A program made the position numbers and the translations under genes. This document shows, piece after piece, positions 3,825 to 58,653 of a DNA stretch of 64,000 nucleotides (the first letter of the stretch is position 1; each line of letters opens with the position of its first letter). Origin of the DNA: Olsenella sp. An293. GTDB taxonomy: Bacteria > Actinomycetota > Coriobacteriia > Coriobacteriales > Atopobiaceae. The notes beneath the pieces are model-generated. The model was not told where the DNA came from. It saw only the letters and a list, made by a program, of their open reading frames with translations, and did no database searches. The stretch lies in the NCBI RefSeq assembly GCF_002159495.1, contig NZ_NFIT01000006.1, forward strand, positions 1-64,000. The letters are read 5' to 3'.

Positions 3825-4161
3825 GCGGGCGGGGTCGACCGCTCTTCTCGTCTGCGCGATTCTCCGCGAAATTATCGCAGTCCATGGGCTCTGTTAACGT
3901 ACCCAACTGCGATTTCTTCGAGGAGAACGGAGCGGAGGCGCGTCGCGGGGCGAGAAGAACGTGCCGAGAAGAACGTGCCGAGAAGAACGTGCCGAGAAGG
4001 ACTTCGCGGGACGAGAAGGGCGCGCCGTCGGTGGGAGTTTTTGGCTCCGCCCCCCGAATTGTCCGTAAATCGGGTGATGTGCTCACCCCCCACCCTCGCC
4101 GATACTTTTGGTTGAACAGTTATGCCTGACGGGCGTACGTCGGCCGAGGGGATGGTGGCTT
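3825..4161. other. 337-bp gap with a tandem CGAGAAG repeat
   Basis: No convincing gene is seen. The stretch holds the 14-bp tandem array at 3951-3999 and a further CGAGAAG at 4012-4018. The end forms the leader of the giant surface-protein gene (GAGGGGATGG upstream of its ATG). No clear intrinsic terminator for the regulator gene is visible. Confidence 0.6.
3951..3999. repeat. 14-bp tandem repeat, 3.5 copies, built on CGAGAAG
   Basis: The unit CGAGAAGAACGTGC occurs perfectly at 3951-3964, 3965-3978 and 3979-3992, followed by a half copy (CGAGAAG) at 3993-3999. Each unit begins with the 7-mer that is over-represented across the whole window. The array lies in the gap upstream of the giant SLH protein. 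Confidence 0.9.
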
Positions 4162-22216: not shown

Positions 22217-22304
22217 CTCGCCTCCTTGCTATTCGTTTGACCTGCAAATCTTACCATGAGCGGTTGGTTTTGGCCTGTGAGCGCGAGAAATCCACGGGTC
22301 GTCC

Positions 22305-22402
22305 GCTCGTCGCGGCGCTGCCTGCATCCGGCGCTCGGACAGCTTGGCGAGAAGGACGCTCGCCAAGAACTCGCGGCGGACGCTGGCAGCGCCGCGACGA
22401 GC
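22305..22402. repeat. core-in-palindrome element, copy 1
   Basis: Outer arms at 22305-22322 and 22385-22402 are an 18-bp perfect inverted repeat, extended by TCCG/CGGA after a small internal loop. The conserved core GGCGCTCGGACAG ... AACTCGCGG lies between them. It encloses an 8-bp inner stem CTTGGCGA/TCGCCAAG with loop GAAGGACGC, which contains CGAGAAG at 22348-22354. It sits between the DUF512 gene stop and der. No T-tract follows on either strand. Confidence 0.85.
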
Positions 22403-22437
22403 TGCTGTTGCATAATCGGCCGCCCGCGTCGGGCGCG

Positions 22438-38648: not shown

Positions 38649-40364
38649 TTAGGCGCGGGCGGGGACGACGCGCTCGGAGATCCAGGAGACGAGCTCGTCC
38701 ATCGGCACGTCGAGGCGCTCGCCGGTCTCGCGGACCTTGACCTCGGCCATGCCAGCGGCGACGCCTCGCTTGCCCAGGATCACCTGGTACGGGATGCCGA
38801 TGAGGTCGGCGTCGGCGAACTTGACGCCCGGGCGCTCCTTGCGGTCGTCGAGAAGCACCTCGATCTCGGCGGCGGAGAGCTCCTCCACGACCTTCTCGGC
38901 CACCGGGGCCACCACGTCGTCGCCCACGGCCAGCGGCACGACCTCGACCTCGTAGGGCGCCACGCAGACGGGCCAGCAGATGCCGTGCTCGTCGTTGTGC
39001 TGCTCCACGACGGCGGCCAGCGTGCGGGAGACGCCGATGCCGTAGCAGCCCATGAGGAAGGGACGCTCGACGCCGTCCTCGTCGGCGAAGGTGGCTCCCA
39101 TGGACTCGGAGTACTTGGTGCCGAGCTGGAAGACCTGCGAGATCTCGATGCCGCGGGCGCTCTTGAGGGCCGCGCCGCAGTGCGGGCAGGGGTCGCCGGC
39201 CTTCACGCTCACGAGGTCGGCCCACTCGTCGACCTCAAAGTCGCGGCCCGGACGGGCGCCCGTGAAGTGGTAGTCGACCTCGTTGGCGCCGCAGGTCCAC
39301 GACACGCTCTCGCGCAGCGACTCGTCGCAGACCAGGCGCACGCCCACAGGCAGGCCCACGGGCCCGATGAAGCCCTTGTGCAGGCCGGCGAGCTCGAGCT
39401 CCTCGTCGCTCATGAGGTGGTAGGCGCCAAAGAGCTTGCCCGCCTTGATCTCGTTGAGCTCGTGGTCGCCGGGGACGATGGCGACGACGCTCGTGCCGTC
39501 CTCGGCCACGAGCGCGAGCGACTTGCGCGTGCCGTTCTCGGGGAAGCCGAAGAACGCGGCCACGTCCTCGATGCTGCCGAGGCCCGGGGTGTGGACCTTC
39601 TCGAGCGTGCCGTCGCCGGGACCCTCGGTCACGGGGACCTTGGTCGCGGCGGCCTCGACGTCGGCCGCGAAGCCGCAGTCGCAGTAGACGAGCTCGGCCT
39701 CGCCGGAGTCGGCGAGCGCCATGAACTCGACGGAGGTGTCGCCGCCGATCTGGCCGGAGTCGGCCACGACGGGCAGCGCGTAGATGCCGCAGCGCTCGGC
39801 GATGCGGGCGTAGGCGGCCTTCTCCTGCTCGTAGCACTCCTGCAGCGACTCCTGCGTCGCGGAGAAGCTGTAGGCGTCCTTCATGATGAACTCACGGCCG
39901 CGCATGAGGCCAAAGCGCGGGCGCATCTCGTCACGGAACTTGTCCTGGATCTGGTAGAGCGTGCAGGGCAGCTGCTTGTAGGAGCGCAGCTCGTTCTTCA
40001 CGAGGTCGGTGAAGGTCTCCTCGTGCGTGGGGCCGAGGGCGAACTCGCGGCCGTGGCGGTCGGCGATGCGCATGAGCTCGGGGCCGTAGGCGTCCCAGCG
40101 CCCGGACTCGTGCCAGAGCTCGGCGGGCGTGAGGATGGGCACCATCATCTCCTGGGCGCCGATGCCCTCCATCTCGTCGCGGATGACTGCCTCGATCTTG
40201 CGGATCGAGCGCCAGGCGAGCGGCAGGTAGCTGTAGAGGCCGGCGGCCGTCTTGCGGATCATGCCGGCGCGCAGCAGCAGGCGATGGCTCGCGAGCTCGG
40301 CCTCGGCGGGGTCCTCCTTGAGCGTGGGGGCGTAGAGCTGGGACATCTTCTGATAACGCTTCAC
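38649..40364 (-). CDS. proS: prolyl-tRNA synthetase, bacterial type
   Basis: The class II enzyme charges tRNA-Pro. Seen are SQLYAPTLKEDPAEAELASHRLLLRAGMI, motif 2 region KFRDEMRPRFGLMRGREFIMKDAYSF, LGPTHEETFTDLVKNELRSYKQLP, and motif 3 GCYGIGVSRTLAAVVEQ. The ~180-residue editing insertion (INS) sits between motifs 2 and 3, as in bacterial-type ProRS. The GTG at 40364 (VKRYQKMSQL, 571 residues) is chosen for its AAGGGA site; the ATG at 40346 is an alternative. Confidence 0.95.
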   Translation of the reverse strand: MKRYQKMSQLYAPTLKEDPAEAELASHRLLLRAGMIRKTAAGLYSYLPLAWRSIRKIEAVIRDEMEGIGAQEMMVPILTPAELWHESGRWDAYGPELMRIADRHGREFALGPTHEETFTDLVKNELRSYKQLPCTLYQIQDKFRDEMRPRFGLMRGREFIMKDAYSFSATQESLQECYEQEKAAYARIAERCGIYALPVVADSGQIGGDTSVEFMALADSGEAELVYCDCGFAADVEAAATKVPVTEGPGDGTLEKVHTPGLGSIEDVAAFFGFPENGTRKSLALVAEDGTSVVAIVPGDHELNEIKAGKLFGAYHLMSDEELELAGLHKGFIGPVGLPVGVRLVCDESLRESVSWTCGANEVDYHFTGARPGRDFEVDEWADLVSVKAGDPCPHCGAALKSARGIEISQVFQLGTKYSESMGATFADEDGVERPFLMGCYGIGVSRTLAAVVEQHNDEHGICWPVCVAPYEVEVVPLAVGDDVVAPVAEKVVEELSAAEIEVLLDDRKERPGVKFADADLIGIPYQVILGKRGVAAGMAEVKVRETGERLDVPMDELVSWISERVVPARA

Positions 40365-40449: not shown

Positions 40450-40540
40450 CCGCCTGCCCGGCGGGGCCAACCCCCGGCGCTCGGACAGTCCTCGCTCGCT
40501 GCGGAACTCGCGGCGGGGGTTGGCCCCGCCGGGCAGGCGG
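40450..40540. repeat. core-in-palindrome element, copy 2
   Basis: Arms at 40450-40475 and 40515-40540 are a 26-bp perfect inverted repeat. The core GGCGCTCGGACAG ... GGAACTCGCGG lies between, with a short inner segment TCCTCGCTCGCTGC instead of the inner stem of copies 1 and 4. The arm sequence is unrelated to the arms of the other copies. Confidence 0.88.
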
Positions 40541-40581
40541 CCAAGACGTCACGCCATCGATAGTTGCGCTCGGTTGACGTA

Positions 40582-40681
40582 GGCCCAGCGGCGACCGCAT
40601 ATGTCCCGCCGCGAGTTCTTGCCGAGCGTCCTTCTCGGCAAGCTGTCTGAGCGCCGGGGCATATGCGGCCACCGCTGGGCC
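40582..40681. repeat. core-in-palindrome element, copy 4 (inverted orientation)
   Basis: Arms at 40582-40603 and 40660-40681 pair over 22 bp with two mismatches (GGCCCAGCGG/CCGCTGGGCC, then CCGCATATG/CATATGCGG). On the minus strand the core reads GGCGCTCAGACAG ... AACTCGCGG, with inner stem CTTGCCGA/TCGGCAAG and loop GAAGGACGC. It begins 8 bp after the ispG stop. Confidence 0.86.
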
Positions 40682-40688
40682 GGGCGTT

Positions 40689-41771
40689 CTAGGTGAAGCG
40701 CCGCTCGATCTCGGCGAAGAGCTCGTCGACGGCGTCCGCCTCATCGACGGTGCGGATCTTCTCGCCCGCGGCGAACAGCACCGCCTTCCCGCGGCCGCCC
40801 GCGAGGCCGATGTCGGCGCCCTTGGCCTCGCCGGGGCCGTTCACCACGCAGCCCATGACGGCCACGGTGATGGGCGCGCGCACGCCGGCCAGGCGCCGCT
40901 CGACCTCGGCGGCGACGCCCATGAGGTCCCACTGGCAGCGGCCGCAGGTGGGGCAGCTCACGAGCTCGGGGCGCAGGCGGCGCAGCCCCACGGCGGAGAG
41001 CAGGTCCCAGGCCACGTGGACCTCCTCGACCGGGTCGGCCGTGAGCGAGAGGCGCATGGTGTCGCCGATGCCCTCCATGAGCAGGGCTCCGACGGCGGCG
41101 GCGTTCTTGACGGTGCCCTGGCGGGCGGTGCCGGCCTCGGTGACGCCGATGTGGAGCGGGACGTCGGGCAACTCGCGGGAGAGGGCGCGGTTGACCTCGA
41201 CGGTCGTGGGGACGCCGTGGGCCTTGGCGGAGAGCACGATGTCGCGGAAGCCGCGCTCGCGGAAGTGCGCGACGAACGAGGAGGCGGAGCCCACGAGCTT
41301 CTCGACCTGCGTGAGGTCGGGCCGCTCGGCGTAGGCGGGGTCGAGCGAGCCGGCGTTGACGCCGATGCGGATGGGGATGCCCGCCTGCCCCGCCTCGTCG
41401 ATGACCGCGTCGACGCGGTCCCAGCTGCCGATGTTGCCGGGGTTGACGCGCAGCGCCGCGGCCCCGCGCCGGCAGGCCTCGATGGCGAGGAGATGGTCGA
41501 AGTGGATGTCGGCGACCACGGGCAGCGGGGAGTCGGCGCAGATGCGCTCGAAGCCGTCGAGCGCGCCGGCGTCGGGGACGGCCACGCGCACGATCTCGCA
41601 GCCCGCCTCCGCGAGCCGGCCGATCTGCTCGAGCGTGGCCTGGGCGTCGGAGGTGGGCGTCGTGCACATGGACTGGACCGAGACGGGGGCGCCCCCGCCC
41701 ACGGGGACCTCCCCCACCATGACCCGGCGCGTCAGCTCGCGCGGCGCGGGGCGCGCATTGTTCTCGCTCAT
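40689..41771 (-). CDS. ispG: 4-hydroxy-3-methylbut-2-en-1-yl diphosphate synthase
   Basis: The 360-residue [4Fe-4S] enzyme converts MEcPP to HMBPP in the MEP pathway. It has PVSVQSMCTTPTSD, VADIHFD, ALRVNPGNIG and the cluster cysteines in SCPTCGRCQWDL and VAVMGCVVNGPGEAKGADIG. It is the last gene of the pyrH-frr-uppS-cdsA-dxr-rseP-ispG operon. The ATG at 41771 is 8 bp after rseP. Confidence 0.96.
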   Translation of the reverse strand: MSENNARPAPRELTRRVMVGEVPVGGGAPVSVQSMCTTPTSDAQATLEQIGRLAEAGCEIVRVAVPDAGALDGFERICADSPLPVVADIHFDHLLAIEACRRGAAALRVNPGNIGSWDRVDAVIDEAGQAGIPIRIGVNAGSLDPAYAERPDLTQVEKLVGSASSFVAHFRERGFRDIVLSAKAHGVPTTVEVNRALSRELPDVPLHIGVTEAGTARQGTVKNAAAVGALLMEGIGDTMRLSLTADPVEEVHVAWDLLSAVGLRRLRPELVSCPTCGRCQWDLMGVAAEVERRLAGVRAPITVAVMGCVVNGPGEAKGADIGLAGGRGKAVLFAAGEKIRTVDEADAVDELFAEIERRFT

Positions 41772-57356: not shown

Positions 57357-57414
57357 ATACGTTCCCCCCAAGCTCGACGTGGCGAGTCTACCAGAGTGGG
57401 GCACGACGAGCCCA

Positions 57415-57500
57415 GGCCCGCCGTCCTTCTCCGGCGCTCAGACAGTCCTCGCCTCGCTGCGCTCGGCTGCGGAACTCGCGGCGGAGAAGGACGGCGGGCC
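57415..57500. repeat. core-in-palindrome element, copy 3
   Basis: Arms at 57415-57433 and 57482-57500 are a 19-bp perfect inverted repeat (GGCCCGCCGTCC...GGACGGCGGGCC). The core GCGCTCAGACAG ... GGAACTCGCGG has a longer inner segment (TCCTCGCCTCGC...). It begins 14 bp after the dgt stop. Confidence 0.87.
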
Positions 57501-57513
57501 GAGGCAGGACCCG

Positions 57514-58577: not shown

Positions 58578-58653
58578 CTGTGAATTGGGGACAGTCCCCG
58601 ATTCACAGGTCGCGGCGGGGACCTGCACGTTGGGGACTGTCCCCATTTTACAG
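58578..58653. repeat. REP-like GGGGACxGTCCCC palindrome
   Basis: CTGTGAAT.GGGGACAGTCCCC (58578-58599) and GGGGACTGTCCCC..TT.ACAG (58632-58653) are inverted arms with two mismatches. The left half alone folds as a 14-bp hairpin at 58578-58608. Such GGGGACAGTCCCC palindromes are known from REP/RAYT-type elements in other bacteria. It sits between ppdK and dgt. Confidence 0.75.

Follow-up and report, generated by a model that had tools for sequence, protein, structure and literature searches.

A probable doublet of a REPIN-like palindromic repeat family between ispG and proS of Olsenella sp. An293

The gap between ispG and proS of Olsenella sp. An293 contains two long palindromes in opposite orientation, copies 2 and 4, which we read, with somewhat better than even confidence, as a doublet belonging to a REPIN-like, non-autonomous family of palindromic repeats. 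The palindrome family is probably mobile. The window analysed is the whole stretch of 64,000 nucleotides at positions 1 to 64,000 of contig NZ_NFIT01000006.1 (assembly GCF_002159495.1); the host genome is a congener of Thermophilibacter gallinarum. Genes were called with a codon-usage caller trained on the window, and the boundaries of proS derive from the ORF list and this caller. The gap and its flanks are composed as follows:

38649–40364, minus strand: proS (prolyl-tRNA synthetase), the downstream gene, named from the sequence-only reading and the sequence
40450–40540, minus strand: copy 2, a type B element, with its core on the minus strand at 40478–40513
40541–40581, no strand: 41-bp spacer of the divergent doublet
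40582–40681, plus strand: copy 4, a type A element, with its core on the plus strand at 40609–40653
40689–41771, minus strand: ispG, the upstream gene, whose end adjoins copy 4

The sequence-only reading had described two inverted, core-bearing palindromes 41 bp apart and had assigned them to two subtypes, and both descriptions hold. The palindromes are 91–100 bp long. The arms of copy 2, located about 90 bp upstream of proS, are 31 nt long and 97% complementary, with 29 nt between them; those of copy 4 are likewise 31 nt long and 87% complementary. The two copies have a common core, GCGAGTTC..CTGTCYGAGC, in opposite orientation, and differ in their inner stems and arms: copy 2 carries the inner segment CGCAGC..GCGAGGA (reverse complement TCCTCGC) of type B, and copy 4 the inner stem TTGCCGAG..CTCGGCAAG of type A. 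A third inner stem, type C (TGCAGG..CCGAAG), is seen in relatives. The elements are generally built of a conserved core, 5'-GCGAGTT..CTGTCTGAGC-3' (internal loop), an exchangeable inner stem and long copy-specific arms.

Four matches to the core pattern CCGCGAGTTC-N5..30-CTGTCYGAGCG lie in the window (22332-, 40478-, 40609+ and 57435-), against 0.00 expected from shuffled sequences. The two matches outside the gap belong to the following copies:

22311–22396, minus strand: type A copy, intergenic (22217–22437), also present in T. gallinarum
57414–57501, minus strand: type B copy, immediately after a stop codon

Exact cores number 19 in the 2.3-Mb genome, and a search with a covariance model based on 44 copies recovers 33 genomic copies at E<1e-6. 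The proposal that each copy has its own unrelated arms holds: among the 19 genomic copies, the two arms within one copy are complementary at 21.6 of 26 positions, against 12.6 for arms taken from different copies. It needs qualifying in that some copies have common proximal arms (gagaaggtccgcc) and the arms at orthologous sites are related by descent. Also seen in the window were about four copies of CGAGAAGAACGTGC arranged head-to-tail at 3951–4010; the GAGAAGRAC motif is over-represented between genes, 11 of 30 instances falling within 9% of the window.

Pairing of copies is recurrent. This genome contains eight pairs, among them the ispG–proS pair and two with one weak member. A tally by eye from tables, taking in copies less than about 500 bp apart, gives 33 pairs in Coriobacteriia, all of them divergent, with the left copy on the minus and the right copy on the plus strand. 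The exceptions seen were same-strand neighbours in Omnitrophica G002 and a partial case in G011. Most doublets have 12–57 bp between model ends. About 15 of the 21 listed doublets are heterotypic, combining type A with type B or C, so that the presence of two subtypes in one gap reflects a general tendency.

Between-gene positions are occupied by 28 of 30 own copies, and none of the 30 lies between divergent genes. A stop codon faces the 3' side of the core in 20 own copies, and in all 20 it is 1–25 bp away; the ispG stop codon is within ~15 bp of the end of the copy 4 arm. In T. gallinarum, Gordonibacter and G011, too, many copies are close to stop codons. For G007 and G005, 8 of 49 copies were called between divergent genes, the gene caller being less reliable there. 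Second members of doublets are oriented antisense to the co-directional genes, at a large distance from stop codons.

Occupancy of the sites varies between congeners. Among 27 genomes of the genus in which the ispG–proS gap is readable, including the host, the gap contains both copies in 10, fused copies in one and partly deleted or disrupted copies in five, and 11 have neither; fixation in every relative is thus not observed. At 57.4 kb, 3 of 30 congeners have the copy, and in two close relatives (L398, L399) nearly the same arms as those at 57414–57501 enclose an inverted core. A doublet at 101 kb occurs in the host genome and in G027; the corresponding place in G036 measures only about 40 bp. 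T. gallinarum has counterparts of at least a dozen own copies, and many sites are common to congeners, so mobility is not rapid; considering also the variable presence and absence at individual sites, the family is neither fixed nor fast. The BIME/REPIN-like character of the pairing put forward by the sequence-only reading is supported by the recurrence of inverted pairs in one fixed orientation, by copies behind stop codons and by their gain or loss between congeners.

Loss can account for part of the presence/absence pattern. The empty sites at 57.4 and 101 kb do not align to the base, so that direct insertion falls short of proof. Neither a target-site duplication nor a base-exact empty palindrome was found. 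One candidate for the latter, with GCGCCGGCGCCGGCGC at the position of the distal arm in L223, was suggestive; as a short repeat can account for it, it was set aside. Other palindromic or repeated families occupy the same 3' gaps in congeners (L416, L221, L215, L211, L216, L220, L231 and G027), for example GACTCATTTCCGGAAATGAGTC arrays in L416 and CGGCCCGTTATC..GATAACGGGCCG in L434; the G027 109-kb site corresponds to L434 8752–9022.

In one genome, copies are also nested in one another. The rumen genome G005 has an outer 3' core half beside 14 of its 24 copies, both outer halves being recognised in four, and two of its loci (L361 and L364) apparently comprise three nesting levels. Outside this genome, none of 132 copies has both outer core halves. 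Insertion of REPINs into or beside REPINs has been reported (PMC3116915), giving nesting a precedent.

Within Coriobacteriia, 52 of 149 genomes carry the family (49 of 124 good genomes), representing 24 of 78 genera. Beyond this class, two Omnitrophota MAGs have 3 and 19 copies and a Phycisphaerales MAG has a single one, and the core is identical across these phyla, unpaired positions included. Elements in Omnitrophica UBA2337 (L312, L308) directly follow apparent tRNA 3' ends, and the L312 element is tandemly duplicated together with its flank. Plasmids, phages and E. coli yielded no full-length core match; a pattern scan of viral contigs in IMG/VR gave 68 matches, none with arms, which were taken as the chance baseline. 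The letters of the core were not found in the open-access papers searched.

According to the sequence-only reading, the pairing would suit replication by a REP-type tyrosine transposase, and the genome might be searched for a RAYT gene flanked by the core. Two Y1 genes are indeed encoded there, nearest to the NCBIfam model REP_Tyr_transpos (REP-associated tyrosine transposase), both proteins scoring 69 bits against a cut-off of 80; the core, however, adjoins neither of them, nor does it occur within about 1.5 kb of any of 32 Y1 loci (2 own and 30 from 14 genomes). The RAYT-like gene at C5:16155–17106 (L177) is accompanied on both sides by paired TTGGGGACWGTCCCC palindromes, which occupy ~79 places in the genome, including one pair in the window at 58587–58644, and looks like part of a RAYT–REP set of another sequence. 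A 98% complete congener (G016) contains 16 elements and no Y1 gene at E<=0.001, and at the same threshold no Y1 match was obtained in the element-bearing genomes of Gordonibacter (G010) and Enteroscipio (G004) or in G002, gaps in MAGs being possible throughout. G036, of the same genus, and the T. gallinarum record G007 have identical coordinates of Y1 genes and elements, which puts the T. gallinarum genome in the genus of the window. A trans-encoded RAYT that moves the doublets as genuine REPINs would agree with the two RAYT-like proteins and with inverted doublets mostly 12–57 bp apart, as in REPINs (PMC3116915). The absence of the core from the Y1 loci, the separate TTGGGGACWGTCCCC repeat around one own RAYT, the element-bearing genomes without a Y1 match and the lack of a conserved GTAG/CGTC tag (GTAG near the hairpin base in 14 and CGTC in 12 of 148 copies, close to chance by estimate) speak against it, and we hold it to be improbable and, for the Y1 genes seen, largely refuted. 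Since association with a RAYT failed despite the REPIN-like layout, the elements are not filed as REPINs. No autonomous partner or parent element was found either; the stretches between same-orientation copies (G007 L332, G002 L311), considered as possible sites of such a parent, contain no transposase-like ORF by eye in the translations.

The tight fit to stop codons could instead reflect a selected 3'-UTR role, the elements being RNA hairpins that act, through a protein-binding core, as factor-dependent terminators or as stabilisers of mRNA, and that multiply owing to their usefulness at the ends of genes. Consistent with this are the hairpin base adjoining the stop codon in a preferred orientation, the Omnitrophota copies after apparent tRNA 3' ends, and a core kept across phyla while the arms change complementarily. 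In 79 copies from other genomes, aligned by fitting to the covariance model, which favours pairing, 95.7% of cells are paired compared to 54% in shuffled and 41–51% in slid controls, and 552 cells are double changes. At orthologous sites inner types switch and 12–17% of positions are unpaired, pairing being mostly kept; proximal arms change there on both sides together (GCATATG.. versus CGGGCAA..), and the arms of copy 2 diverge gradually, in pairs, across congeners. For a selected transcribed RNA, however, G.U would be expected to be tolerated over A.C. Mismatches beyond the first two pairs next to the core comprise 66 G.T and 65 A.C on the model strand, and 22 G.U and 16 A.C by transcribed strand; the surplus of G.T that the model strand seemed to show (135:71) came wholly from the two core-adjacent positions and is gone beyond them. 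Arm changes are thus without strand bias and do not indicate an RNA-level constraint; the pattern favours a DNA-level process, in which one arm serves as template for the other or a DNA hairpin is under selection, and a weak RNA role may exist besides. The hairpins are followed by TTTT in only 3 and 1 of 148 cases on the two strands, and Rfam searches at gathering and relaxed thresholds returned nothing relevant, with weak matches to microRNA models only. The elements are also absent behind the same genes in many congeners, and the second doublet members, antisense and remote from stop codons, fit a 3'-UTR function poorly. Taken together, we consider selected RNA hairpins an unlikely origin of the family. 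Ordinary immobile gene-end palindromes that converged on a similar apex would account for the many sites common to congeners and for the gradual, paired divergence of the copy 2 arms; yet a core identical across phyla even at unpaired positions, with 0.00 matches expected in shuffles, together with nested copies and clade-specific presence, makes such convergence extremely improbable.

Under the preferred reading of a mobile REPIN-like family, new copies would be inserted by a trans-acting, core-recognising enzyme, not demonstrably a RAYT, either immediately after genes or at the apex of palindromes already in place. A copy that landed in an older palindrome would thereby have unrelated arms. 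The arms may be kept complementary by copying of one arm onto the other through template switching or cruciform exchange in replication, which would also explain the core flips and the swaps of inner stems. Selection would purge copies from promoters and coding sequence, and an influence on the ispG mRNA 3' end, if there is one, would be secondary. A bolder version, to which we give a rather low probability, is that of a RAYT-independent, multi-phylum mobile palindrome that targets hairpin apices, including its own, by means of a hairpin-recognising enzyme, grows from within by nesting and takes its arms from the host palindrome.

RAYT transposases are the usual explanation of REP-type repeats, whereas the present family combines REPIN-like pairing and placement with no RAYT link. 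It occurs in distant phyla, and its long variable arms stay paired without an RNA-level signal. The multiplication of palindromes in bacterial chromosomes, and the upkeep of their symmetry, can be put to the test with this family. The availability of several near-complete congeners makes gain and loss directly testable.

BIMEs of enterobacteria consist of palindromic units that alternate in orientation within intergenic gaps 3' of genes, like the family described here, with which they have no sequence relation (0 core matches in 5,426 E. coli genomes). MITEs are similarly short, non-coding, multicopy and palindromic. In the present family, no family-wide terminal repeats, target-site duplication or parental transposon were seen; sharp ends (AAGTCTTTG..CAAAGACTT) delimit a ~130-bp unit in Omnitrophota G001 only. 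GTAG/CGTC REPs resemble our elements as palindromes found mostly downstream of coding regions, where the flanking genes are convergent or co-directional, and frequently paired into opposed dimers mostly 20–100 bp apart (PMC3733652). The elements differ in having no conserved base tag and in exceeding the palindrome length of 20–40 bp given in that work, the text of which makes no mention of Eggerthella, Olsenella or Coriobacter. With the REPINs of Pseudomonas fluorescens SBW25, REP doublets that fold into hairpins (PMC3116915), the family has in common short-spaced inverted doublets, extragenic location and compensatory changes. In contrast to REPINs, it comprises tens of copies without an adjoining RAYT, its doublets are mostly heterotypic, and each member is a 90–100 bp hairpin with a conserved apex and long, variable outer arms.
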